IMG/VR virus record: IMGVR_UViG_3300040815_001330
Span: 1 to 23,815 of that record
Strand: one strand, 5' to 3'
Source of the DNA: a virus
Length of the DNA stretch: 23,815 bases
Of this stretch, positions 7,858 to 23,815 are shown one piece after another. Below the pieces are notes generated by a model. That model had not been told where the DNA came from and made no database searches. It saw nothing but the letters and a program-made list of their open reading frames with translations. How positions within the stretch are numbered: the stretch's first letter is position 1; the number at the start of each line of letters is the position of its first letter. The position numbers were made by a program, and so were the translations under genes.

Positions 7858-8064
7858 ATGCTGAAGAAAATAGGACAAAATGACCTAAAAGAAGAATATA
7901 GAATATTCTTTATGGTCAAAGGTCACCTCGACGCATCACCTCAAACAGTTATGGAATGTTATAACGGATACTTCAATCGCCTTTGGCGTGACGGAGCCGA
8001 TGGTGGACCTCTTTATGAATATGATGAACAGTTTGAACACGCCTGGGAGAAAAAAGTATGGTAA
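7858..8064 (+). CDS. Hypothetical protein
   Basis: A 68-residue protein with aromatic-rich helices (EEYRIFFMVKGHLDAS, YNGYFNRLWRDGADGG). There is no convincing Shine-Dalgarno; instead AGTAAATA ends four bases before the ATG, a spacing also seen at 13401 and 20210 and discussed as a finding. The stop overlaps the next gene by seven bases. No family recognised. Its place just ahead of the tmRNA gives no functional hint. Confidence 0.65.
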   Translation: MLKKIGQNDLKEEYRIFFMVKGHLDASPQTVMECYNGYFNRLWRDGADGGPLYEYDEQFEHAWEKKVW

Positions 8065-8270
8065 CCTCGAAAATAGCGCAACTTAGCGAAACAGATTTAG
8101 ATTATCTAGATCAACTACTACATCGAGAGTTTTCAAAGCAGTGCAACAACAGCACACAATGGAAAACAAAGAACAATAGCACCTATCCATACGACAACTC
8201 CAAACAACTTGTAAGATTAATGGACGCTGTTCGCAGTCAAAAAAAACTCTTGACAATGCCCAAATGGTAG
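8058..8270 (+). CDS. Hypothetical protein
   Basis: A 70-residue protein that overlaps the preceding gene by seven bases. The first 30 residues form a helix with spaced leucines (SETDLDYLDQLLHREFSKQC), followed by a polar Asn/Thr-rich stretch and a basic C-terminal helix (LVRLMDAVRSQKKLLTMPKW). The -35 box and spacer of the tmRNA promoter lie inside its last codons, which fixes those codons for a second purpose. No function can be assigned. Confidence 0.65.
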   Translation: MVTSKIAQLSETDLDYLDQLLHREFSKQCNNSTQWKTKNNSTYPYDNSKQLVRLMDAVRSQKKLLTMPKW

Positions 8271-8280
8271 TGTATAAATA
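8250..8280 (+). promoter_or_regulatory. Promoter of the tmRNA gene, sigma70 and T4-late boxes superimposed
   Basis: TTGACA (8250-8255), 17-base spacer, TATAAA (8273-8278), giving a near-consensus sigma70 promoter about 20 bases ahead of the acceptor piece. The same -10 continues as TATAAATA (8273-8280), the exact T4 late promoter box, so the gene could be transcribed both early by host polymerase and late by a gp55-type sigma. Confidence 0.75.
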
Positions 8281-8346
8281 GTATTGTAACGTTGAAGCAA
8301 TTCAAACGACATTCTGGACCCGGGGGCGGTACCCGGCGACTCCACC

Positions 8347-8409
8347 AAAAATACATTCTGCTTACTGTATAGCAGAAGCAACAGGCTGATAAACTGGGAA
8401 TGTATTTTT
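8347..8409 (+). other. tmRNA intervening segment with 12-bp processing stem
   Basis: AAAAATACATTC (8347-8358) and GAATGTATTTTT (8398-8409) are perfect complements, so the segment between acceptor and coding pieces folds back directly on the acceptor end. A second hairpin (CTGCT/AGCAG, 8358-8362 and 8371-8375) lies inside. In permuted tmRNA genes this segment is removed to give two RNAs. Confidence 0.85.
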
Positions 8410-8500
8410 GATGGGGTCGAAATAGGATCGACAGGTGTTTAATAGGGTTAGTGGAGTTACCGGGATGTAAGCGCCGTTACCGCGAACAAACATTCTAAAT

Positions 8501-8542
8501 GCAAACGCAAATAGAGCGCCAGAAATGGCAATGGCAGCCTAA
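8501..8542 (+). other. tmRNA tag reading frame (ANANRAPEMAMAA)
   Basis: Fourteen codons from resume codon GCA to TAA encode ANANRAPEMAMAA. With the alanine carried by tmRNA the full tag has 14 residues, the same length as the Caulobacter tag, and it shares the AN-N start. It ends MAMAA where many tags end in LAA or VAA. Confidence 0.9.
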
Positions 8543-8590
8543 GTAAAAGGCTTCCGGGGTTAGAGGAGCCCCTAGCAACAGAATGCTCCT

Positions 8591-8613
8591 CACTGCTACA
8601 CTTTAACGCAGTG
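8591..8613 (+). terminator. Hairpin after tmRNA, probable terminator
   Basis: CACTGC (8591-8596) pairs with GCAGTG (8608-8613), followed by a short T-rich run (TCTTTACTT). It could be the tmRNA terminator or the last stem of the precursor. Confidence 0.5.
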
Positions 8614-8620
8614 TCTTTAC

Positions 8621-8649
8621 TTGACTTTACACTTTTTCCATGCTATATA
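8621..8649 (+). promoter_or_regulatory. Sigma70-type promoter behind the tmRNA
   Basis: TTGACT (8621-8626), 17-base spacer ending in TGC, TATATA (8644-8649) with TATAAT overlapping three bases on. It should drive the membrane-protein genes from 8677 and possibly the pseudoazurin gene. Confidence 0.75.
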
Positions 8650-8676
8650 TAATACACACACAAAAAAGGATTTATT

Positions 8677-9039
8677 ATGAATACCTCTCCAAAGCCCATT
8701 GGTTGGGCAACTACTATCTCAACACTAGCTGCTATTCCTAAAGACATGTGGGACAGCGTAATGACCATTGAAAAATCACCACTACGCAACTTAGACCCTA
8801 TGGTAGCACATATGATTTTCCAGTGTCTATTCTTTATCTGGAGCGGCTTGTTTGCTGTGATGATCGGCAGCTATATGGCGTTTGGCATTAGTGCAGTATT
8901 CCATATGGCTCTTATCACTGGTGTAACACTTACAGCAGTGACATTCCGTCAAGCAGAAAACAATCCAGAATCAATCAACAAACTGCTCAAGAGCGGTAAA
9001 AAGTATAACGGTCGAGCAGCAGATGGAGAACATGTATAA
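8677..9039 (+). CDS. Inner-membrane protein, two transmembrane helices
   Basis: A 120-residue protein with two hydrophobic segments, roughly residues 46-65 (MIFQCLFFIWSGLFAVMIGS) and 67-88 (AFGISAVFHMALITGVTLTA), separated by a very short turn, so a helical hairpin with both ends on the same side. The N-terminus (PIGWATTISTLAAIPKDMWD) is amphipathic and the C-terminus is basic and polar. AAGGA precedes the start. The hairpin size would fit a holin-like or host-membrane effector, but there is no specific motif. Its stop overlaps the following small membrane gene (TAATG). Confidence 0.75.
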   Translation: MNTSPKPIGWATTISTLAAIPKDMWDSVMTIEKSPLRNLDPMVAHMIFQCLFFIWSGLFAVMIGSYMAFGISAVFHMALITGVTLTAVTFRQAENNPESINKLLKSGKKYNGRAADGEHV

Positions 9040-9191
9040 TGTTTAAAGGACTAGCACTATCATTTTTCGTTATAATTCTGATGTTTACAGTAGTACCCAT
9101 TGGCATAACTATACTCACCTTGGGTGTAGATGAATATGCTAGTAACTGCAAGCAAGCAATTCATATGCCATGTTTTGGTTTAAGCGAATGA
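9039..9191 (+). CDS. Small single-pass membrane protein (50 residues)
   Basis: A short gene starting at ATG 9039, one base inside the previous stop (TAATG), ending at TGA 9189-9191. Residues 4-30 are hydrophobic (GLALSFFVIILMFTVVPIGI onward), followed by a short polar tail with two cysteines (EYASNCKQAIHMPCFGLSE). It fills what would otherwise be a 130-base gap and is coupled to genes on both sides (its stop forms ATGA with an ATG at 9188). Coding status rests on this packing and on the clean membrane segment; no family recognised. Confidence 0.6.
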   Translation: MFKGLALSFFVIILMFTVVPIGITILTLGVDEYASNCKQAIHMPCFGLSE

Positions 9192-9409
9192 AACCAAACA
9201 ACAACTTTGAACTTACAGTAAGAGACATTGAAGTCATTGAATCAGCACTACGAGCAAAAGCTGGACGCAGAGGAATGGCTATTGTTCAAGGTGAAACATC
9301 GCCTCAGCTCAAAGCAGAAATGCATGAACTACAAGAACTACTAGGCAGAATACACAATCAAAAGAATTGGTACAAGCCCAAAGACGACCGCTTTCAAGGA
9401 GGCGGATAA
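9170..9409 (+). CDS. Hypothetical small helical protein
   Basis: A 79-residue protein with a helical middle (FELTVRDIEVIESALRAKAG, then QLKAEMHELQELLGRIHNQK) and a glycine-rich end. Two starts are possible: ATG 9170 gives MFWFKRMKPN, and ATG 9188 makes an ATGA overlap with the preceding stop; neither has a Shine-Dalgarno sequence, so coupling is likely. The helices look like a two-helix coiled-coil hairpin. Its style is that of short conserved proteins in marine T4-like phages, with no known function. Confidence 0.65.
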   Translation: MFWFKRMKPNNNFELTVRDIEVIESALRAKAGRRGMAIVQGETSPQLKAEMHELQELLGRIHNQKNWYKPKDDRFQGGG

Positions 9410-9431
9410 CCATATACGAAAGGAACATGAT

Positions 9432-9872
9432 ATGGCAAGACTACTAACGACTATTGGACTATTAATGGCAATGGCAACAAGTGCATTTGCAGAAGATGTT
9501 ACACTAGAAATGTGGAACAAAGACCCAGACGACAAAAAACGCAAAATGGTTTTCTCACAAGAGATTGTAACTATTGATGTAGGCGAAAGTGTTACTTGGT
9601 TGGCAACAGACAAAGGCCACAATGTACAAATGATTGATGGACCAGACGGTGTTAAACTGCCAGGTAAATCAAAAGTATCAAAAGATATAACACTGTCATT
9701 TGACACACCAGGTGTCTATGTATATGTTTGTACCCCACACGCAAGTATGGGTATGATCGGTATTGTTGTTGTCGGTGAACTTACACAAGAAGCTATTGAC
9801 GCAGTGCGTGACGCAAAACTACGTGGCAAGTCAAAGAAAAAGTTTGAGGCTCTGTTAGCAGAACTACCTTGA
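9432..9872 (+). CDS. Pseudoazurin-type blue copper protein, exported
   Basis: A periplasmic electron carrier of the cupredoxin family. Residues 1-20 are a signal peptide (basic start, LLTTIGLLMAMATSAFA, cut before ED). The mature part has the type 1 copper set: H63 in KGHNVQMIDG, then C100-TPH103-ASMG-M108, the same C-x2-H-x4-M spacing as pseudoazurin. The length (146, mature about 126) and the helical C-terminal extension (TQEAIDAVRDAKLRGKSKKK) are also pseudoazurin features. Pseudoazurins pass electrons between membrane complexes and periplasmic reductases or oxidases. AAAGGA lies upstream of the start. In a phage it would act in the host periplasm during infection, presumably to keep respiration going; that role is inferred. 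Confidence 0.93.
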   Translation: MARLLTTIGLLMAMATSAFAEDVTLEMWNKDPDDKKRKMVFSQEIVTIDVGESVTWLATDKGHNVQMIDGPDGVKLPGKSKVSKDITLSFDTPGVYVYVCTPHASMGMIGIVVVGELTQEAIDAVRDAKLRGKSKKKFEALLAELP

Positions 9873-10081
9873 ACTGGATCGAAATAGATAAAATGCTCTA
9901 CGGCATTATAGCACGACATGATGCCGTAGAGGACATGCTCAAAGAAGCTAAGACACAATTCAAGTGGACGGATTCACAAGCACAAGCAGCACTAAAACCG
10001 TTGCTCAAACGCAACAACTTTGAAGAAGTTTTACCCAAAATCATTAAAAAGACATCAAAACGCTCGACAAAACGGAAGTAG
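9869..10081 (+). CDS. Hypothetical small basic protein
   Basis: A 70-residue protein that begins at TTG 9869, forming a TTGA overlap with the pseudoazurin stop; ATG 9893 is the alternative. Helices in the middle (HDAVEDMLKEAKTQFKWTDS, then QAQAALKPLLKRNNFEEVLP) lead to a strongly basic tail (KKTSKRSTKRK). The basic tail suggests nucleic-acid contact, but no domain is recognised. It is followed by an intrinsic terminator, so it closes the cluster that starts at 8677. Confidence 0.6.
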   Translation: MNWIEIDKMLYGIIARHDAVEDMLKEAKTQFKWTDSQAQAALKPLLKRNNFEEVLPKIIKKTSKRSTKRK

Positions 10082-10101
10082 ATGTTATAACTATTATAGT
10101 G

Positions 10102-10129
10102 AAAGGGCAAGTGTGGTTACTTGCCCTTT
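10102..10129 (+). terminator. Intrinsic terminator
   Basis: AAAGGGCAAGT (10102-10112) and ACTTGCCCTTT (10119-10129) form an 11-bp perfect stem with a 6-base loop. The T tail is part of the stem. Confidence 0.8.
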
Positions 10130-10149
10130 ACTATGTATATACATATTAA
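10121..10149 (+). promoter_or_regulatory. Weak sigma70-like promoter for the porin-like gene
   Basis: TTGCCC (10121-10126), 17-base spacer, TATTAA (10144-10149), overlapping the 3' arm of the terminator. A 12-bp palindrome ATGTATATACAT (10133-10144) fills the spacer and could be an operator. Confidence 0.4.
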
Positions 10150-10164
10150 AAAAGGAACTAAAAT

Positions 10165-10959
10165 ATGCGTAATGTATTTATTACAACAGTAGCCGCTATG
10201 GCTATTTCAACAGCAGCATTTGCTGAAGACACAGCAACTCCAGTAATGGGTCCTGTTATCTCAGGTGAAGTATCACTTGACTTTGCTGAAACAGCAAACG
10301 ACAAAATTGGCGGAACAATGGGTCTTGACCTAGGTGTAGACGTAAGTGGAATGGCAACTGTAGATTTAGACTTTAGTGCAACAGACGGCAACTCTGTAAC
10401 ATTAGACAACTGGACAGTTGGTACAACAATGGGTACTATAGCAATGGCATTTGGTGATGACAATGGTGTAATGCCAGGCGCTGAAGGTGAGCAAACACTA
10501 GCAGCACCAGCAATGACTGAGTCACTACAAGTAACAACAGGTGCAGTAAGTGTAGCAGTTGGTCTTACAGACTGGACAACAGACATCACAGACGTAAGCA
10601 ACATTCAAGGCGCTTACACATTGAACGTAGCAAACCTAGATGTAACAGCAGCAGCTGACTACAACTTGGACAGTGAAAACACAGTACTAGGTGCAGGTGT
10701 AGGTGGACTAGACTTAGGCGTAGCATCACTAGGCGGCGCAATGACTTACGATGTAGATGGTGAAACATTTGGTTTTGAAGGTGTAGCAACAACAGGTGGC
10801 TTAACAGCATACCTAAACGGTGACGACACAGATGCACTACAAAACATCGGTGGTGAGTATGAAGTAAATGTAAATGGTGCAACATTTACAGCAGGTGCAA
10901 ACTATAACATCGATACAGAAGACTTTGCTCCAACAGCAAGCATTGGCTTTGCATTCTAA
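10165..10959 (+). CDS. Outer-membrane beta-barrel, porin-like
   Basis: A 264-residue protein with a clear signal peptide (MRNVFITTVAAMAISTAAFA, cut before ED). The mature chain is a succession of short amphipathic beta strands rich in Gly, Ala, Thr, Asp and Asn, with alternating hydrophobic residues (GAMTYDVDGETFGFEGVATT). It ends TASIGFAF with a terminal Phe, the signal read by the BAM machinery for outer-membrane insertion. Length and composition are those of a small alphaproteobacterial porin. It is very acidic and has no Cys. AAAGGA precedes the start, and strong terminators flank the gene on both sides, so it is a single-gene transcript. A phage could use it to replace a host porin, alter uptake or block superinfection; the role is inferred. 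Confidence 0.82.
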   Translation: MRNVFITTVAAMAISTAAFAEDTATPVMGPVISGEVSLDFAETANDKIGGTMGLDLGVDVSGMATVDLDFSATDGNSVTLDNWTVGTTMGTIAMAFGDDNGVMPGAEGEQTLAAPAMTESLQVTTGAVSVAVGLTDWTTDITDVSNIQGAYTLNVANLDVTAAADYNLDSENTVLGAGVGGLDLGVASLGGAMTYDVDGETFGFEGVATTGGLTAYLNGDDTDALQNIGGEYEVNVNGATFTAGANYNIDTEDFAPTASIGFAF

Positions 10960-15864: not shown

Positions 15865-17007
15865 ATGCGCATCGAAGATGATGTTAAACTTGACTACAAG
15901 GATGTATTAATTCGTCCAAAGCGTAGTACACTTAAAAGTCGTAGTGAAGTGTCACTAGGACGCAGAACAAAGTTTCGCAACTACGAACCACCGTTTCCAC
16001 ACAACATTGAAGACTACCATTATGACGGCATTCCTATTATGGCTGCTAACATGGACGGTGTTGGTACATTTGAAATGGCCGACAAACTTGCCGAAGGCGG
16101 CATTTTTACTTGTCTTGTTAAAACGTATTCAGTAGAAGAACTTGTAGAATACTTCAATAGCGATATACCAGAGCGTACAAATAATGTTGCTATGAGTATT
16201 GGTACAAGTGATGATGACTTTCATAAGTTAGTTGATGTACAAGCAGAAGTATGTGATCAACTAAAATATGTGTGTATGGACATTGCAAATGGCTACAGCG
16301 AACATTTTGCTGACGCGGTGCGTCGAGTACGCAAACAGTTTCCAGACTTAGTAATCATCGCTGGAAACGTAGTAACAAGAGAAATGACGGAGGAACTTAT
16401 TCTTGCTGGAGCAGATATCATTAAAGTGGGAATTGGCCCTGGTAGTGTATGCACTACTCGCATTCAGACTGGCGTGGGGTATCCCCAACTTTCGGCAGTT
16501 ATCGAATGTGCAGATGCGGCTCATGGTCTTGGCGGACATATTATTGCTGATGGCGGCTGTACCTGCCCTGGTGACGTGGCTAAGGCTTTTGCTGCCGGCG
16601 CAGACTTTGTAATGCTAGGTGGTATGCTTGCCGGACACGATGAAGGCGGTGGCGAAGTGATTACCAAGATTTATGAAACAGATGAAGTTATTAAAACAGA
16701 TGATAACTTCTACGAATCAGTATACAAAGAAAAACAGTTTGTACAGTTCTATGGTATGAGCAGTGAAAGTGCAAACGACAAACATTTTGGTGGACTGAAG
16801 GATTATCGTTCATCAGAAGGACGCACAGTGCTTGTGCCTTATAGAGGTGCTGTAGCCAAAACGGTACAGGACATTCTAGGAGGTGTGCGTAGTACTTGCA
16901 CATATGCAGGTGCTAAAACAATCAAGCAACTGCCTAAGTGTGCAACATTTATTCGTTGTACACAAACACACAATTCGATCTATGAAGGATCGACAATTGG
17001 TAAATAA
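15865..17007 (+). CDS. guaC: GMP reductase
   Basis: Converts GMP to IMP and ammonia with NADPH. 380 residues; E. coli GuaC is about 347, and the extra length is an insertion around [20 protein letters not shown]. The N-terminus [20 protein letters not shown] and later blocks ([48 protein letters not shown]) follow GuaC closely, not IMP dehydrogenase; there is no CBS domain. The catalytic cysteine is C196 in [11 protein letters not shown]. In infection it would feed guanine nucleotides from host RNA back into the IMP pool for adenine synthesis. AAGGA precedes the ATG. The central part around 16420-16640 uses more G/C-ending codons than the rest of the gene. Follows S21 by 12 bases. Confidence 0.94.
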
Positions 17008-17586: not shown

Positions 17587-17886
17587 ATGAGCGCAGATGT
17601 AAAACTAGATGAACGAATTAAAATTGATTTTAATGAACCAAAGAAATATAAAGTAATATTTTTAAATGACGATACTACTCCTATGGAGTTTGTTATTGAT
17701 GTATTAGTTAATATTTTTAAACATACACCAGATAGTGCTATGCAAATAACCATGCAAGTACACGAAGAAGGCAGTGGTGTTGTTGGTGTGTATTCACACG
17801 AAGTTGCTGAAATGAAAACAACTGAAACAGTAATCCTATCACGAAATCACGGATTTCATTTACAAATCAAGTTAGAGGAAGAATGA
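17587..17886 (+). CDS. clpS: ClpS-like adaptor of the ClpAP protease
   Basis: A 99-residue adaptor that delivers N-degron proteins to ClpAP and lowers ClpAP turnover of ssrA-tagged proteins in E. coli. The N-end pocket is intact: N27-D28-D29 (FLNDDTTPMEFV), M33 and H59 (MQVHEEG), equal to E. coli N34-D35-D36, M40 and H66. The fold continues through GVVGVYSHEVAEMKTTETVI. The N-terminal extension (SADVKLDERIKIDFNEPK) is short and acidic, as in ClpS. AGGAG precedes the ATG. It overlaps the heme oxygenase start (ATGA), so both are made together. A phage that also encodes tmRNA has reason to steer host proteolysis. Confidence 0.92.
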   Translation: MSADVKLDERIKIDFNEPKKYKVIFLNDDTTPMEFVIDVLVNIFKHTPDSAMQITMQVHEEGSGVVGVYSHEVAEMKTTETVILSRNHGFHLQIKLEEE

Positions 17887-18422
17887 GCAAACTTAAAGAA
17901 CTTACCTGGGCTAATCACCAGAAAGCAGAACGTACAGAACATGCCCGCAAACTGCTACACGGCATGACACCAGAAGAGTATCATAGATATTTGTACAATC
18001 AATATGTAATGTATGCTGTGCTGGAAAGCCAAGCAAAAACATATGGCGTATTAGAAGGCATTGAAGATATTGCAAGAGCAGATGCAATCCGTGCAGACGT
18101 TGAAGAACTAGAAACTGCACATGGTATTGAACGCAACGGAGACTTGCTGTGTCAAGTTGTTGCAGACTATACAGACTATTGTATGCACATGAAAGACCGA
18201 GAAGAGTTTCTAGCACACTTGTATGTACGTCACTTTGGTGATATGTATGGCGGCCAAATGATTAAAAAGCGTAATCCAGGCAGCGGCAAGATGTATGAGT
18301 TTAATAATGTAGAAGAACTAAAAACTACAGTACGTGCTATGCTTACAGACGACATGGCAGATGAAGCAAACACATGTTTTGAGTTTGCAATGCAACTATT
18401 TGAGGAGTTAGACAGTGAGTGA
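17883..18422 (+). CDS. Heme oxygenase (biliverdin-forming)
   Basis: Opens heme to biliverdin, CO and iron using reduced ferredoxin. 179 residues; all-helical HO fold. The proximal heme ligand is H12 in LTWANHQKAERTEHARKLLH, and the distal helix carries the glycine motif HFGDMYGGQM (GDLSGGQ in cyanobacterial HO1). PEEYHRYLYNQYVMYAVLES is the usual second helix. It is somewhat shorter than cyanobacterial HO1, as phage versions tend to be. It starts inside the ClpS stop (ATGA) and ends eight bases inside the bilin reductase gene, so clpS, ho and the reductase form one coupled unit. The product biliverdin is the substrate of the next enzyme. Confidence 0.94.
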   Translation: MSKLKELTWANHQKAERTEHARKLLHGMTPEEYHRYLYNQYVMYAVLESQAKTYGVLEGIEDIARADAIRADVEELETAHGIERNGDLLCQVVADYTDYCMHMKDREEFLAHLYVRHFGDMYGGQMIKKRNPGSGKMYEFNNVEELKTTVRAMLTDDMADEANTCFEFAMQLFEELDSE

Positions 18423-19101
18423 AGTTTGGGATACACTGATTAAAATACAAGATAGATTGATCGAACGTTTTGATGCAACTGGTCAAGAATACAACGAAAT
18501 AGGCATGGATAGATTTAATCAACCAGGTTGGATCAACCGTGTATGGACCAGTGAGAACTATCGTAGAGCCCACATTGACGTAGTTGATGCACGAGACAGC
18601 AAAGGTTTGTGGATGATGCATTGCTGTGTGTTTCCTCACTTGGACAATGACGGTCCTATCTTTGGATTAGATGTTATTGCAGGTAAAAACAAAATCACAG
18701 GTTACTTCCATGATTACTCTCCAACGTCTTTGGAGTATCATGAAATGATTGAAGCATTCGGAGATGAAGTAGCAAAACTAGAATGGCGCAAGCCACGTGA
18801 ATTACCAGAATGGGCAAAGGCTATATTTACTGAACATATGGTTGCAGCAGGTAATGTAAACAGCACTGAAGAACTAGAACAACTTGTGGAACTAAGTTTT
18901 GACAGTATTGACAACTATTTAGAATACATTGGTTCCTACAACGGAACAGGTAAAGAAGAAGCAGGCAAAGCAGCACAAAATCGTTATGCACATTATCAAA
19001 AACAAAATCCACATACTCCTAAAACAATGACCAGTTTAGGACTTGACGAAGAGGATGTAAGAGTATTCGTACAAGAATGTTTATTTCCTGATATCGAATA
19101 A
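18415..19101 (+). CDS. pcyX: Ferredoxin-dependent bilin reductase, PcyX/PebS-like
   Basis: 228 residues from GTG 18415, supported by AGGAG at 18403-18407. FDBR features: ENYRRAHIDVVDARDSKGLW, then MMHCCVFPHLDNDGPIFGLD with H69 and D86 at the positions of the catalytic His and Asp of the family, ITGYFHDYSP, and the C-terminal block YAHYQKQNPHTPK ending VQECLFP. These enzymes reduce biliverdin to phycobilins; cyanophage PebS makes phycoerythrobilin in two steps. Phage reductases outside the cyanophages, called PcyX and thought to come from alphaproteobacterial phages, also make phycoerythrobilin. Context here (permuted tmRNA, SAR11-like gene set) argues for PcyX over PebS. The exact product cannot be read from sequence. 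Confidence 0.88.
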   Translation: MSEVWDTLIKIQDRLIERFDATGQEYNEIGMDRFNQPGWINRVWTSENYRRAHIDVVDARDSKGLWMMHCCVFPHLDNDGPIFGLDVIAGKNKITGYFHDYSPTSLEYHEMIEAFGDEVAKLEWRKPRELPEWAKAIFTEHMVAAGNVNSTEELEQLVELSFDSIDNYLEYIGSYNGTGKEEAGKAAQNRYAHYQKQNPHTPKTMTSLGLDEEDVRVFVQECLFPDIE

Positions 19102-19123: not shown

Positions 19124-20194
19124 ATGCGTTATAAAGACCTTGTAGAATACGAAGACTTAGGACAAGAAAAAGAACAGATTATATCAACTATTTCTGGACT
19201 GAGTGCAGACAATCAAGACGAAGCAAACTTGTTGGATAGAATTTGGAAAATCCTCAACAGTGGAACTATTAGTACAAACATTGATAACGCATTTGATATT
19301 CCTCTACAAGACGAAAACATGGGCGACAAAGAAAAACTATTAATTCGTCAAGACATGACAAAGATCTTTAGCACCATTGAAAGCGATTATAAAACAATGG
19401 ACACATTGCTCAAGCGTTTAGAGCAAGGCGGCGCAGTAGATATTGGTGCATTATCAAAACCACTAAACACGTTTAGCGCAGTGTTTGGTGACGAAGTTGG
19501 ATCAGCAGCATTTAGAAAACTAGCAGCATATGGAGTTGGTAAAAAACAAAAAGGTCCAGGTGAATATGGATTGGCTTGCTTATCAAACAAAGTACGACTA
19601 GCAGCAGGCGAAGGTGACCTTGAGATTGACGGCATTGGCAAAGTAGAACTCAAAGCAGCAATGAGTTCAAGTGGTGGGCGTATTGGTTATGGCGGCGGAT
19701 CACAAAAAGCCAAACGTGCAGTGCTAGAAAAGTATAAAGAAAAGCTACCAACTGTTATTGGTGCTATTGGTGCTAAAGGTGGCAGTTTAGGACTAGGTCC
19801 ATTTATGCAAGCATTGAACACAGACTTGCCAACAAGCGAGCCTAACAATCAAAAGATTAGAAAATCATTGATGCTGGATTTGTTGCAAATGGACATGGAA
19901 AACTATGCTGGTCCTATTGCAGACAAAGTTGCAACAACTGAAGATGCAAGTCAAGTTGAACTTACATATCTAGCACAAAACTTTGAATGGTACAAAAACA
20001 GAGACAACTTTGATGCACTATTGCTAATGAGTATTCCAAATCAAAAAACTGCAATGCTTCGCAATGCAAATGATCTAGCAGCGTTTAGACAAGGTGGACA
20101 TGCTGGCGGACTTGCTATTAGTATTATTCCTACACAAGCTGGCGCAGGTAGAGAACAGTGGGCACAGCTTACACTTAATAAAGCAATGATATAA
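19124..20194 (+). CDS. Conserved protein, possible PD-(D/E)XK nuclease fold
   Basis: 356 residues. The N-terminal 100 are helical. The middle has GPGEYGLACLSNKVRLAAGE then GDLEIDGIGKVELKAAMSSS, with E147, D165 and the pair E175-x-K177: an upstream Glu, then Asp, then ExK on a strand, which is the PD-(D/E)XK nuclease layout. A basic GGRIGYGGGSQKAKR loop follows. The C-terminal region is mixed, with LLLMSIPNQK and GGLAISIIPTQAGAGRE. I associate this kind of protein with marine T4-like phages, unnamed. If the fold is right it cuts DNA, perhaps host DNA or branched intermediates. It could also be a structural protein; the motif is the only support. AGGAG precedes ATG. Confidence 0.75.
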   Translation: MRYKDLVEYEDLGQEKEQIISTISGLSADNQDEANLLDRIWKILNSGTISTNIDNAFDIPLQDENMGDKEKLLIRQDMTKIFSTIESDYKTMDTLLKRLEQGGAVDIGALSKPLNTFSAVFGDEVGSAAFRKLAAYGVGKKQKGPGEYGLACLSNKVRLAAGEGDLEIDGIGKVELKAAMSSSGGRIGYGGGSQKAKRAVLEKYKEKLPTVIGAIGAKGGSLGLGPFMQALNTDLPTSEPNNQKIRKSLMLDLLQMDMENYAGPIADKVATTEDASQVELTYLAQNFEWYKNRDNFDALLLMSIPNQKTAMLRNANDLAAFRQGGHAGGLAISIIPTQAGAGREQWAQLTLNKAMI

Positions 20195-20209: not shown

Positions 20210-20683
20210 ATGCGCAATACTTTTATCATATCAATGAGTTGGTTGTTTATAAGTAGCTCAATAGTTTCAGCTGATTTAGTACATGAATTCAAATCGCCAG
20301 CATTTAGTGGGACTGGATACAGTGCCCATATGCTAAGTCAAGAACAGCTCACATTTAATCGACGTAAGGACATTGATGATAAGGCGCAGCGTGAAGCTGA
20401 TCGTTTAGAGCGTGAGCTAGAAAACACAGTTCTCAACAAGTTTATACGTAATCTTGAGTCACGTATATATGCAACACTCTCTAAGCAAATGGTGGACAAT
20501 ATGTTTGCAGCATGTGGAGAAGAAGATCAACCAGCATGTGCTAACACTGGCACAACTGAAGTTGAAGGTGCTACGATTACATGGACCAAAGATGAAACTG
20601 ATGGTAGTATCACACTTGTTATAGACGGCCCAGATGGCTATACAGAGATTACTATTCCAGGCGCTGGGGAGTTTAACTTTTGA
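20210..20683 (+). CDS. csgF: CsgF-like curli assembly protein
   Basis: 157 residues with signal peptide (FIISMSWLFISSSIVSA, cut before DLVHEF). The mature start DLVHEFKSPAFSGTGYSAHM matches CsgF, whose N-terminus (TFQFRNPNFGGNP-like) plugs into the CsgG pore; the aromatic-Gly-rich stretch and the following helix (AQREADRLERELENTVLNKF) and ITWTKDETDGSITLVIDGPD sheet also fit. E. coli CsgF is 138 residues. It couples CsgG to the nucleator at the cell surface. A CACG-type pair of cysteines (AACGEEDQPACAN) is an addition. The start has no Shine-Dalgarno but GGTAAATA ends five bases before. csgG follows in a TTGA overlap. Confidence 0.87.
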   Translation: MRNTFIISMSWLFISSSIVSADLVHEFKSPAFSGTGYSAHMLSQEQLTFNRRKDIDDKAQREADRLERELENTVLNKFIRNLESRIYATLSKQMVDNMFAACGEEDQPACANTGTTEVEGATITWTKDETDGSITLVIDGPDGYTEITIPGAGEFNF

Positions 20684-21465
20684 AGTATCTATCTTTCATA
20701 GCAGTATTATTCCTTGCTGGATGTGCAAGCATGGGTCAAGTTCCTAAAACGCTACAACAACCAGCAAAACTACAATCCAATCCAATGGTAGAAGAACTAA
20801 ATGATCTAAAGCCATTAAATGGTCCAGTGATGACAGTAGGATTATATAGTTTTACTGACAAAACTGGGCAGCGTAAACCAGCAGACAATGTTGCTAACCT
20901 ATCTAGTGCAGTAACACAAGGTGCAGAAGTTTGGGTAATAGATGCACTATTACAAGCAGGTGAAGGTACTTGGTTTGAAGTAGTAGAACGTTCGGGCATG
21001 GACAATATAATCCGTGAAAGACAGCTGATACGCAACACTAGAGAAAACTACGAAAAAGAAAATGCAACTCCTCTAGCACCAATGAAGTTTGCAGGCATAC
21101 TTATCGAAGGTGGCATTGTAGGATATGATAGTAATGTGACCACAGGCGGCAATGGTGCTATGTATTTGGGCATCGGAACAGCAGCAGAGTATAGAGTTGA
21201 CACAGTAACCGTAGCAATGCGTTTGGTCAGTGTTAGCACAGGTAGAGTGTTAGTAAGTGTAGCAGCAGAAAAATCAATAGCAAGTTATAGACAAGGTGCT
21301 AATGCATTTAAGTTCTTAGAGTTAGGCACAGAAGTTTTAGAGATTGAAACAGGATATAGTGTTAACGAACCAACCAACTATGCAGTTCGTGAAGCTATTG
21401 AAGCAGCAGTAATAGAATTAATCTATCAAGGTGCAGATCAAAACTTATGGCAATTCAAAGAATGA
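20680..21465 (+). CDS. csgG: CsgG-like curli secretion lipoprotein (outer-membrane pore)
   Basis: 261 residues from TTG 20680 (TTGA overlap with csgF; GGGGAG at 20666-20671 supports it). Signal peptide and lipobox FLAGC, so C15 is lipidated. It tracks CsgG: MTVGLYSFTDKTGQRKPADN, SSAVTQGAEVWVIDALLQAG, WFEVVERSGMDNIIRERQLI, ILIEGGIVGYDSN, TVTVAMRLVSVSTGRVLVSV, and the C-terminal NYAVREAIEAAVIELI. CsgG forms a nine-fold ring with a 36-strand barrel and a constriction that passes unfolded curlin. The E. coli constriction residues Tyr51, Asn55 and Phe56 align to a region (RKPADNVANLSSAV) with N73-L74 and no aromatic, so the channel may differ. The last 28 bases overlap the convergent regulator gene. 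Confidence 0.93.
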   Translation: MKYLSFIAVLFLAGCASMGQVPKTLQQPAKLQSNPMVEELNDLKPLNGPVMTVGLYSFTDKTGQRKPADNVANLSSAVTQGAEVWVIDALLQAGEGTWFEVVERSGMDNIIRERQLIRNTRENYEKENATPLAPMKFAGILIEGGIVGYDSNVTTGGNGAMYLGIGTAAEYRVDTVTVAMRLVSVSTGRVLVSVAAEKSIASYRQGANAFKFLELGTEVLEIETGYSVNEPTNYAVREAIEAAVIELIYQGADQNLWQFKE

Positions 21466-21740
21466 TTATAGCGTTTTATTTTTGCTAGTAATGTTTCTCG
21501 TTTAATACCCAATCGTCGAGCAGCATGTGTACGATTTCCGTTAGATTCAGTTAGTGCCTTTGAAATCTTATCTATTACAAAGTCATCTACCTCATTGTGC
21601 AAACAATATTCAGTTTGATCATTGTTCGTTTCAGCTCCTACTTCGCCCCAAAGTTCATCAAATGTTTCCCAAAAGGCCTGCTGTTCTTTGTGTGTTTGTT
21701 CTGCTTTTTTAAGTGCTTTCATGATTAATCTTAATTCCAT
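21438..21740 (-). CDS. Fis-type helix-turn-helix regulator, only minus-strand gene
   Basis: 100 residues read on the minus strand from ATG 21740-21738; a second in-frame ATG begins at 21722. The C-terminal part DKISKALTESNGNRTHAARR then LGIKRETLLAKIKRYN is a Fis / NtrC-type HTH_8: helix, the NRTxAARxLGI turn, recognition helix. The N-terminal half (ALKKAEQTHKEQQAFWETFD) is a charged helix, so it lacks the receiver and AAA domains of NtrC. It overlaps csgG tail-to-tail by 28 bases and faces the curlin gene head-to-head across 111 bases with a palindrome and divergent late-type boxes. Best read as a local regulator of the curli-like cluster; direct evidence is lacking. Confidence 0.85.
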   Translation of the reverse strand: MELRLIMKALKKAEQTHKEQQAFWETFDELWGEVGAETNNDQTEYCLHNEVDDFVIDKISKALTESNGNRTHAARRLGIKRETLLAKIKRYNHSLNCHKF

Positions 21741-21756
21741 TATGTATGCCTTTTAC

Positions 21757-21772
21757 TGTAAATATATTTACA
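21757..21772. promoter_or_regulatory. 16-bp perfect palindrome, candidate operator
   Basis: TGTAAATATATTTACA reads the same on both strands. It lies between the regulator start and its predicted -10 box, close to the expected transcription start on the minus strand, where a bound dimer would block it. A second weaker dyad (TAAATA and TATTTA, six bases apart) follows at 21775-21792. Confidence 0.65.
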
Positions 21773-21785
21773 CTAAATATAAGTG

Positions 21786-21793
21786 TATTTATA
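21786..21793 (-). promoter_or_regulatory. T4-type late promoter box (TATAAATA), minus strand
   Basis: Plus-strand TATTTATA is TATAAATA on the minus strand, the exact T4 late consensus, 45 bases ahead of the regulator ATG. Confidence 0.55.
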
Positions 21794-21807
21794 GAAGTGA
21801 AGGTTCA

Positions 21808-21815
21808 TATAAATA
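21808..21815 (+). promoter_or_regulatory. T4-type late promoter box (TATAAATA), curlin gene
   Basis: Exact TATAAATA followed by C, 36 bases before the curlin ATG at 21852, with GGAGGG at 21841-21846 as ribosome site. Together with the minus-strand box it makes a divergent late-type pair 14 bases apart. Confidence 0.6.
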
Positions 21816-21851
21816 CAGGTAGAAGATATTATTTTCTTCTGGAGGGCAGAT

Positions 21852-22610
21852 ATGAAAGCATATTCTATATTATTAGCTATGGCATTAAGCATTACGGTGT
21901 TTTCAGTACGAGCTAACGAGATATACATAACACAAATCGGTGACACACTGGATTTAGACATAACACAGGACGGTCTTGACAACGAGTTTGGTGACAGTAC
22001 TACTGATGCTGGACTCTACGGAGATAGTATGGTTTTTAGTATTACACAAACTGGAGACTATAACACCATAGACGCTATTATTGCAGGCGACAGCTACACA
22101 GGAACTTGGCAGTTTACTGGCAACAGCAACAATGTCGACTTACTTTGTAATAGTTCTGCTACTACAGGCGGCGGCAACTGTGATAATGTACAACTTGATA
22201 TCACTACAACAGGTGACTCAAATACGTTTGACTTCAAAATAGGTGAAACCAACGATGCTGGTAATGCTACTATAACATTTACTGTTGATGGCGATGGCAA
22301 CCTAGTTGATATGGACTTGGATGGTACTGATGCTAACATCACTGTCACAATAGATAACAGTGCAAATACAGCTGTCGCAGGACAAACTATTACAAGTGCT
22401 ACTGATTCAACACTAACTGCTAACTCACCGGGCAATATTATTGACTTATCCATAAGTGGCGATGGCGACAGCTTAGGACACACTGTAACACTAGATATCA
22501 CCGGAGGAGCAAATATCTATACGATTACACAAAGTGGTATCTATGACAACTTAGTAGATATTACTTCAACTGGGGACGGAAACACAGTTGATATTACGCA
22601 ATCCGACTAA
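21852..22610 (+). CDS. Curlin-like amyloid subunit (CsgA/CsgB type)
   Basis: 252 residues; signal peptide 1-21 (SILLAMALSITVFSVRA), mature start NEIYITQIGD. The mature chain is made of curlin-type repeats, G-x-x-N-x-x-x-I-x-Q-x-G, here Asp-rich: YITQIGDTLDLDITQDGLDN, VFSITQTGDYNTIDAIIAGD, then less regular Thr/Asp units, and YTITQSGIYDNLVDITSTGD GNTVDITQSD at the end. Repeat spacing in the middle is irregular, and the two Cys in LLCNSSATTGGGNC are unlike E. coli curlins; they may form a disulphide. Strongly acidic. Secreted through CsgG/CsgF it should form surface amyloid. Ribosome site GGAGG is excellent. The FecR-protein gene starts inside its last codons. Confidence 0.88.
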   Translation: MKAYSILLAMALSITVFSVRANEIYITQIGDTLDLDITQDGLDNEFGDSTTDAGLYGDSMVFSITQTGDYNTIDAIIAGDSYTGTWQFTGNSNNVDLLCNSSATTGGGNCDNVQLDITTTGDSNTFDFKIGETNDAGNATITFTVDGDGNLVDMDLDGTDANITVTIDNSANTAVAGQTITSATDSTLTANSPGNIIDLSISGDGDSLGHTVTLDITGGANIYTITQSGIYDNLVDITSTGDGNTVDITQSD

Positions 22611-23718
22611 ACTTTTATGTATAATATTCTTTGCGCTGGCATTTGCAGATATGGCCAATGCAGTTCCTATTGGCGAGATTGCCGAATCTAAAGGCTCGAG
22701 TACAATCAAGCGAGACAAAGAAGCATACACAGGCGAAGTAGGGCTTGGATTACAAATGAACGATAATGTTGTAACAGGCAAAGGCAGACTAAGATTAGAC
22801 TTTATAGACGATACTAGAGTTGATGTAACAGAAAACTCACGTATGACTATTGATGAATTTATATATGACCCTGCTACACAAAAAGGTGCATTGTCAATGA
22901 AAGCAACACTAGGTGCAGTGAGATATGCTAGTGGACAAATAGCAAAAAATAGTAGACAAAGAGTAAACATACGCACACCCAGTGCAACCATCAACGTGCG
23001 TGGCACAGACTTTATGATGATTGTAGACGAGATCGGCGGCAGTATGGTCACACTATTGCCCAGTTGTGATATGAGTGGTGCTTGTGTAATAGGTGAGATT
23101 GAAGTAGAATCAGATGCTGGCACAGTTATAATGAATCAAGCATATCAAACTACCGTTGTAGCACATGCCGGAGCAACACCAGCTAGACCAGTAATACTAG
23201 ATCTCCCAGAAGATATGCTGAACTCAATGTTGATTGTTCGTAAAGTAAGTCCGTATACAGAGGAAATAGAAAAACAGTATCCAGTCACTAACTTACTAGA
23301 TATTGACTTCTTAAAGTTTGATGAACTTGATAAAGATCCACTTATTGAAAGTATCAAAAATATATGGGTCACAGATTTAGACAACACCACATACTTAGAT
23401 GAAGAGTTTTATGATGCAATGGCAAGACAGCTTGCTGAAATATTAGCACAATGGTTTGATGAACTTACTATACAAAATGCAGCATTTTTTGAAGAAAAGT
23501 TTTTTGGGTTAGACCCAGAAACAAATATTTTTTATGATGAAGAATATCCATACTATCTGTTAAGCAGAGCAGAAGGTGACCAACACTTTTTTCGCCTAAG
23601 GTTGGGCCAGGGTTATAGTTATAGTGTGGATATGGCACAAGGAGGATTTTATACTTATGGATATTTGGTGGGCGTCGGCGGTGACAACACTATTACTATT
23701 AATCAACACGACTACTAG
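22588..23718 (+). CDS. Exported FecR-domain protein with C-terminal curlin-like end
   Basis: 376 residues from TTG 22588, 23 bases inside the curlin gene. Signal peptide LLCIIFFALAFADMANA (cut before VPIG). A FecR domain follows at about 35-165: GEIAESKGSSTIKRDKEAYT, NDNVVTGKGRLRLDFIDDTR, SRMTIDEFIYDP, VNIRTPSATINVRGTDFMMI. FecR domains of this exported kind occur in periplasmic or surface proteins, without the TonB-signalling partners. Residues 200-330 are acidic and helical (YDAMARQLAEILAQWFDELT), not recognised. The last residues, VGGDNTITINQHDY, fit the curlin half repeat seen at the end of the preceding gene (GDGNTVDITQSD). This suggests a protein that can dock on, or nucleate, the fibre. 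Confidence 0.82.
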   Translation: MILRNPTKLLCIIFFALAFADMANAVPIGEIAESKGSSTIKRDKEAYTGEVGLGLQMNDNVVTGKGRLRLDFIDDTRVDVTENSRMTIDEFIYDPATQKGALSMKATLGAVRYASGQIAKNSRQRVNIRTPSATINVRGTDFMMIVDEIGGSMVTLLPSCDMSGACVIGEIEVESDAGTVIMNQAYQTTVVAHAGATPARPVILDLPEDMLNSMLIVRKVSPYTEEIEKQYPVTNLLDIDFLKFDELDKDPLIESIKNIWVTDLDNTTYLDEEFYDAMARQLAEILAQWFDELTIQNAAFFEEKFFGLDPETNIFYDEEYPYYLLSRAEGDQHFFRLRLGQGYSYSVDMAQGGFYTYGYLVGVGGDNTITINQHDY

Positions 23719-23815
23719 TAATGCAAATGAAATTTATATGTACCAAGTTGGTGACAACAATGCGTTAACCATCTTGCAAGAAGGCGACGATAATTATATC
23801 AGTGGAATACCTGGT
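23657..23815 (+). CDS. Second curlin-like protein (3' partial)
   Basis: A frame from ATG 23657 runs open to the window end. It encodes a signal peptide (WWASAVTTLLLLINTTTSNA) and a mature start NEIYMYQVGDNNALTILQEG, with GDDNYISGIPG after it: two curlin half repeats and the same NEIY start as the curlin at 21852. AAGGAGG at 23639-23645 is 11 bases upstream. It overlaps the last 62 bases of the FecR-protein gene in another frame. Its length and end lie outside the window. It may be the nucleator-like or the major subunit. Confidence 0.82.
   Translation, partial: MDIWWASAVTTLLLLINTTTSNANEIYMYQVGDNNALTILQEGDDNYISGIPG

Follow-up and report, generated by a model that had tools for sequence, protein, structure and literature searches.

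Curli-type genes, which encode a type VIII secretion system (T8SS), are known in phages of marine bacteria. CsgF and CsgG were reported in pelagimyophages in 2020 together with the idea of "sibling capture" (PMC7029224), and a module of CsgF, CsgG, curlin, FecR, curlin and adenylate cyclase was described in 2022 (PMC9599517). The latter paper also notes that CsgE is absent from pelagiphages and that a histidine kinase lies ahead of csgF in podophage modules. For Melnitz, an OM43 (Methylophilales) phage, a gated-pore or lysis role was proposed (PMC9004378). Here, we describe a module of this type at positions 20210–23815 of IMGVR_UViG_3300040815_001330, a 23815-base virus contig from IMG/VR, which as a whole is called the window below.

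The original prediction placed CsgF, a lipoprotein CsgG, a curlin, a FecR-domain protein and the start of a second curlin in this region of a phage genome. Open reading frames (ORFs) and Pfam profile matches to CsgF, CsgG, the curlin repeat and FecR bear this out, and the setting is that of a virus contig with phage genes. It had also named curli genes as reported in SAR11 myophages, in agreement with PMC7029224 and PMC9599517, and had suggested that the regulator, the FecR partner and the gene overlaps might be new. The antisense regulator stands, together with a palindrome beside it; the FecR partner is already in PMC9599517, and the overlaps vary and look like ordinary translational coupling. 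The locus is a genuine curli module of a phage and of an ordinary kind, to which a new layer of local regulation is added; the changed reading of FecR given below merits a test. Relative to the literature searched, the regulator and the palindrome appear to be new: the words antisense, CHASE2, promoter, transcription factor and helix-turn-helix do not occur in the main text of PMC9599517, figures and supplements aside, and no paper that brings together curli, CsgG, phage and the Fis family was found in a search whose coverage ended short of subscription journals and preprints. The features of the locus are as follows (aa, amino acids; nt, nucleotides).

20210..20683, + strand: csgF, 157 aa, extracellular chaperone or pore-neck peptide (Pfam CsgF, E=4.1e-11; phrog_35372, 3.6e-44)
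20680..21465, + strand: csgG, 261 aa, TTG start, outer-membrane secretion pore (Pfam, 1.3e-50; phrog_20175)
21438..21740, − strand: Fis-type helix-turn-helix (HTH) regulator, 100 aa, antisense (Pfam HTH_8, 1.8e-10)
21757..21772, no strand: 16-bp palindrome TGTAAATATATTTACA in the Fis/curlin 1 gap, proposed operator
21772..21779, + strand: ACTAAATA, late-promoter-like word towards curlin 1 (enriched upstream of genes in relative G010)
21786..21793, − strand: T4-type late promoter word TATAAATA, directed into the Fis-type gene (word enrichment)
21808..21815, + strand: T4-type late promoter word TATAAATA, 36 nt 5' of the curlin 1 start (word enrichment)
21852..22610, + strand: curlin 1, 252 aa (Pfam Curlin_rpt, 3.8e-4; 20.8 bits against a cut-off of 20.7)
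22588..23718, + strand: FecR-domain exported protein, 376 aa, TTG start (Pfam FecR, 2.2e-8; phrog_37870, 3e-95)
23657..23815, + strand: curlin 2, first 53 codons (ATG at 23657), cut by the contig end (Pfam Curlin_rpt, 1.7e-4)

The antisense Fis-type gene and the palindrome

The Fis-type protein scored 40.8 bits for HTH_8 (cut-off 22) and stayed under the NCBIfam Fis equivalog cut-off (25 against 99). Relatives of the locus were collected by IMG/VR scans with CsgG (17 loci) and FecR (28 loci), which gave 30 distinct contigs. Of these, 21 (Fis+) carry the Fis-type gene in antisense orientation, flanked by csgG and the curlin gene. A scan with the Fis-type alignment returned 23 loci: 21 were full length and fell on exactly the 21 Fis+ curli contigs, and the remaining two matched over the HTH part only. 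The gene was not found in the curli loci of HTVC008M or Melnitz, and among phage records the protein matched only three Salmonella-named records, by the HTH alone.

The CsgG and FecR trees require two changes of the Fis+/Fis− label; the near-identical FecR rows L025, L038 and L045 were merged or dropped before the FecR tree and the tail count given below. This distribution fits one gain in one clade and one loss, in L022. The ratio of nonsynonymous to synonymous substitution rates was 0.09–0.5 in 31 of 36 pairs of Fis-type genes, five pairs being saturated, and the HTH is almost invariant across nine distinct sequences. Judged by the substitution ratios, the gene is under purifying selection.

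The 16-bp palindrome TGTAAAnATATTTACA is present in the stretch that separates curlin 1 from the Fis-type gene in all 21 Fis+ contigs and in none of the nine Fis− contigs. Eight sites were found in six Fis+ records (408,991 bases), all inside the curli locus by coordinates, and none in six Fis− records (686,432 bases). In L010, L015 and L024, a second palindrome lies past curlin 2, ahead of the outer-membrane-like gene; the window and L003 stop short of this position. Six contigs carry two copies, and every one of them is Fis+. A looser match in L044 was set aside, as it sits within the cyclase gene. When the whole IMG/VR collection was scanned with one 17-base form of the palindrome, 70 stretches were obtained, of which 23 hold curli genes and 17 a Fis-type gene.

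Late promoter words and the exported proteins

It is known that NATAAATA is the late promoter motif of T4 and cyanomyophages (PMC2984593), and this motif lies upstream of genes in two relatives, G003 (133 kb) and G010 (113 kb). On counts that rest on a rough gene caller, 9 of 15 occurrences of TATAAATA in G003 and 8 of 13 in G010 stand no more than 90 nt ahead of a gene, against 21% and 18% for permuted words; the window gives 2 of 3 against 33%. The whole window has three such words where 2.0 are expected, so that their number is ordinary and only their placement is notable. In an unbiased count of upstream 8-mers, ATAAATAC came first and CATAAATA second in G003, ATAAATAA and GATAAATA in G010, and TATAAATA was sixth in both; the top-ranked words share the core ATAAATA. 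The gap ahead of curlin 1 carries T4-type late promoter words in divergent orientation, and words with this core head the upstream enrichment in two related phages, so the fibre genes are probably transcribed late. The exact TATAAATA is absent 5' of curlin 1 in the Fis+ loci L012, L002 and L015, where a near variant occurs instead. N[AC]TAAATA words were found 5' of csgF in 10 of 15 loci, in several of them too near the start for a promoter, and none is present there in the window. Because these words are patchy, and missing in the window, the fibre genes have a stronger claim to late expression than the pore.

Curlin 1 was present in 48 of 48 curli loci, several of which share a contig, and FecR in 47, the exception (L009) ending before FecR. 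The curlin kernel has been described as N-x-hydrophobic-x-hydrophobic-x-Q (PMC10192328), and it is kept in the phage curlins. An AlphaFold2 model of curlin 1 is predicted to be all-beta with fair confidence (predicted local distance difference test score, pLDDT, 74.6), and three of the five viral fold models matching it at E<=0.001 are named "Curlin associated". Curlin 2 reached 21.9 bits for Curlin_rpt (cut-off 20.7; frame from 23624). Relatives have fuller copies, and the curlin 2 of L020 reached 38.1 bits. The signal peptide of curlin 2 overlaps the FecR tail out of frame. The second curlin of HTVC008M (L047, 10558-11883) bears a PA14 domain (2.7e-6).

FecR proteins that act as iron-signal regulators typically have an N-terminal anti-sigma domain and a transmembrane anchor. 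In the present protein, which is 43.8% identical to that of HTVC008M, residues 1-25 form a Sec-like signal by eye, and Pfam recognised no anti-sigma or other domain N-terminal of the FecR domain, either in it or in the 16-member alignment, all members of which contain PF04773. Its weak NCBIfam matches are the surface proteins Lsa33 and LipL45, and a PDB search with the alignment gave a single match, at E 0.66. FecR seems to be an exported part of the fibre machinery, probably, rather than an iron-responsive regulator.

The C-terminus of FecR resembles the curlin kernel (NTITINQ, residues 367-373). The motif [IV]x[IV]xQ, derived from these same sequences, lies near the end of all 19 distinct tails (22 rows), and the kernel Asn is present in 14 of the 19. 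As the motif was drawn from the sequences counted, the divergent FecRs of L110 and L141 give a more independent test: both carry it, and their curlin 1 proteins are without it. Among 475 ORFs of G003, G010 and HTVC008M (169, 140 and 166), only six, all curlin 1 or FecR, end in this way, a count from which curlin 2 may drop out through the overlap rule. CsgB of Escherichia coli ends in IRVTQR and fits the motif, and CsgA does not match; the C-terminal repeat of CsgB has been discussed as part of the contact with CsgF (PMC10192328). That the tail is a by-product of the overlap with the curlin 2 signal peptide was rejected: in L141 the tail is retained although the cyclase follows FecR immediately, without a second curlin in between, and in L110 it is retained although the remaining 0.7 kb of the contig shows no curlin. 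The kinship of the FecR tail with curlins is a lead, short of demonstrated homology, and FecR is a candidate for a CsgB-like part.

Two genome contigs were found with the FecR alignment. L049 is a phage-like contig of 6.8 kb in a Flavobacteriaceae metagenome-assembled genome (MAG), with a FecR 66% identical to that of HTVC008M; it is probably mis-binned, because it carries an HTVC008M-like phage curli module. L050 is a FecR-domain ORF in a Rhodospirillales MAG (G001), with no curli genes nearby recognised by eye. In the class of this MAG, 47 of 385 genomes gave FecR matches at 1e-20, which end by position 222 of the 368 in the profile, many of them in very large open frames. Three plasmid records matched over the N-terminal part only. 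CsgF matches occurred in six of the 385 genomes, five of them over the cut-off, and the five bacterial curli stretches (17 kb) gave no FecR or cyclase by tblastn with the phage proteins.

CsgF scored 43.6 bits in Pfam (cut-off 25.8) and gave chance-level matches only in the PDB; CsgG matched the PDB structure of CsgG (3x2r) at 3.7e-48 and is 48.5% identical to that of HTVC008M. The Phe of the ASNF loop in E. coli CsgG is replaced by Leu in 18 of 20 aligned rows and kept in L110 and L141. The PHROGs matched by CsgF, CsgG and FecR (phrog_35372, phrog_20175 and phrog_37870) are unnamed. CsgE (PF10627) was found in none of 11 phage records including HTVC008M and Melnitz, a set outside which the truncated window stood, and the E. 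coli control was matched. Correct export signals had been claimed for all the proteins; read by eye rather than by a signal-peptide program, CsgG has the lipobox LAGC and the others Sec-like N-termini, in support of the claim. The overlaps are 4 nt for csgF and csgG, 23 nt for curlin 1 and FecR, and 62 nt for FecR and curlin 2, and their sizes differ among relatives. It should be mentioned that CsgG has a match at 38.5% in OR851715.1, a record of 1.5 kb that goes under the name of a Salmonella phage and is likely a host fragment.

The proposed mechanism and its alternatives

The T4-type promoters in the gap ahead of curlin 1 would drive late transcription of curlin 1, FecR and curlin 2 and, in relatives, the outer-membrane-like protein, sometimes an autotransporter-like protein, and the CHASE2 adenylate cyclase further downstream. 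Sec would export these proteins, and CsgG with CsgF would pass the curlins, perhaps also FecR, across the outer membrane, so that the curlins might fold into beta-solenoids and build fibres at the surface of the infected cell. Timing or dose might be set by the Fis-type protein through binding to the palindrome beside its own promoter and, in some relatives, to the second copy ahead of the downstream genes. Given the likeness of its last strand to the curlin kernel and to the end of E. coli CsgB, FecR may nucleate or anchor the fibre, or report its assembly to the CHASE2 cyclase. The likeliest benefit would be adhesion of infected cells to nearby cells.

A late, locally regulated phage curli system, with FecR as a candidate CsgB-like part, is the reading to which we lean slightly. 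Its extended form, a two-site curli regulon with the Fis-type protein on palindromic operators over late promoters and a curlin-tailed FecR that replaces CsgB and links fibre assembly to the CHASE2 cyclase, is tentative and seems rather unlikely as a whole. If the proposal is true, a phage times the growth of amyloid fibres on an infected ocean bacterium, a trait reported as lacking in the hosts known for such phages (PMC7029224, PMC9004378). FecR in phage curli modules would then be structural and not iron-sensing, and the predicted late timing would bear on the function of phage curli. The short DNA sites and the one small protein are directly testable targets.

Several observations weigh against the preferred reading. 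The fold of curlin 1 gave no PDB match at E<=0.001 with Foldseek; the CsgA fibril 8enq aligned with it by VIA-align at Z 10.6 (110 residues, root-mean-square deviation 8.9) and ranked below many unrelated beta-helices. For the FecR tail, the motif has the circular origin described above, Pfam Curlin_rpt was seen in 2 of 16 FecRs at E<=1 (best 0.039) and in none of three others (L110, L141 and L049), and a custom repeat hidden Markov model matched none of 22 FecRs, with 197 of 4400 shuffles scoring something. The curlins of L110 and L141, too, go unrecognised by the Pfam profile. An AlphaFold2 model of FecR (14 rows) was dropped at pLDDT 35. No tblastn match to gp55 or gp33 at 1e-3 was obtained in G003, G010 or the window, with distant queries from HTVC008M and records that may be fragments. 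The second palindrome is present in just three of the seven Fis+ groups whose sequence reaches its position, and five stretches of the collection-wide scan have curli genes without a Fis-type gene. In that scan, 47 of the 70 stretches are without curli genes, so the palindrome word alone is not specific. The palindrome and the Fis-type gene are co-inherited, and therefore their co-occurrence is mostly one event. Finally, clumping of infected cells, which the original prediction had named as one possible effect next to a block of superinfection, was not observed with Melnitz (PMC9004378).

Alternatively, the Fis-type gene may be a hitchhiker with another target, and the palindrome may be recognised by a host factor or another phage factor. 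Gene and palindrome could have entered as a single block, in which six of the eight sites lie, and the 47 stretches without curli genes would agree with this. This alternative seems unlikely, as the second palindrome precedes downstream curli-linked genes in three groups, the palindrome is nowhere else in 409 kb of Fis+ records, and every full-length Fis-type relative found sits in a curli locus. FecR and the CHASE2 cyclase might instead act together as a regulator, responsive to iron or another signal, of either the curli genes or the host, as annotated and discussed in PMC9599517 (2022); the FecR domain itself and the cyclase of the relatives speak for it. With the Sec-like N-terminus, no anti-sigma domain found, the surface-protein matches and bacterial matches that stop partway through the profile, this explanation is quite improbable.

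The CsgG–CsgF pore could also be the working part, a gated hole that times lysis or admits molecules, with the curlins secondary. A pore role was proposed for Melnitz (PMC9004378), lysis would fit late promoters, and the pore may be open, because no CsgE gate was found in the 11 records searched. A pore alone would have no need of the curlin 1 and FecR that nearly every locus retains, or of curlins that keep the kernel motif and are predicted to be all-beta, and the window already has its own cell-wall hydrolase; we regard this possibility as very unlikely. If fibres are formed, they might chiefly shield the infected cell from superinfection, a role raised in PMC9599517, instead of gathering new hosts. 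With late fibre genes, such protection would set in only towards the end of infection, and it is considered rather unlikely as the chief role. Adhesion remains the benefit favoured in the late, locally regulated system.

Neighbouring genes and comparison with known systems

Past curlin 2, L020 has ORFs of 113, 666 and 96 aa followed by a CHASE2 adenylate/guanylate cyclase. The first two (8015-10411) are a beta-rich, outer-membrane-like and an autotransporter-like ORF by eye, without a Pfam family. Among eight relatives listed, seven have the small outer-membrane-like ORF and five the long autotransporter-like one, again by eye.

The window also encodes ribonucleotide reductase, a PAAR protein and a weak tail-spike match. 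A permuted transfer-messenger RNA (tmRNA) lies at 8246-8592 (Rfam, 143.6 bits) with the tag ANANRAPEMAMAA; because it is of the alphaproteobacterial type, it suggests an alphaproteobacterial host or origin. G003 has homologues of TerL, tail sheath, UvsX and gp41 of HTVC008M, and in the same test the cyclase was the sole match in G010. A Pfam search for gp23 over 10 records gave no match, and its controls were likewise silent. Other genes of the window include a heme oxygenase (Pfam, 3.2e-15) adjoining a ferredoxin-dependent bilin reductase (1.5e-16) at 17883-19101, a pair known in marine phages (PcyX, PMC11480375); a plastocyanin/azurin-type copper protein with an apparent export signal (9432-9872); an IMP dehydrogenase/GMP reductase homologue (15865-17007; Pfam, 5.1e-72); and a beta-rich ORF of 264 aa, outer-membrane-like by eye, with no Pfam or PHROG match (10165-10959).

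The podophage modules have a histidine kinase before csgF (PMC9599517), whereas the window has at this place an ORF (19124-20194) with no Pfam match above the cut-off. The Melnitz record (L048) annotates CsgF, CsgG, two curlin-repeat proteins, FecR and a cyclase, in common with the present module; the paper calls csgA and csgB lacking (PMC9004378), whereas the deposited record has the two curlin-associated repeat proteins. Melnitz and the window each have a tmRNA, and in contrast to the report for Melnitz, no riboswitch was found in the window at the Rfam gathering score. The gene order is the same as in the pelagiphage T8SS modules of HTVC008M and of the uncultured myo- and podophages in PMC7029224 and PMC9599517, the cyclase being taken from relatives, since it would lie beyond the window end; CsgE was not found in the HTVC008M record. 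The antisense Fis-type gene with the palindrome between csgG and curlin 1 was not found in the loci of HTVC008M and Melnitz.

CsgC and CsgD are not among the Pfam matches of the seven window proteins scanned. With the E. coli csgBAC/csgDEFG system, the module shares CsgG, CsgF and subunits with the curlin kernel, and E. coli CsgB has the [IV]x[IV]xQ C-terminus in common with phage FecR and curlin 1. Compared with E. coli, the phage modules add FecR and the CHASE2 cyclase, and in the present module a Fis-type gene stands in the stead of CsgD.

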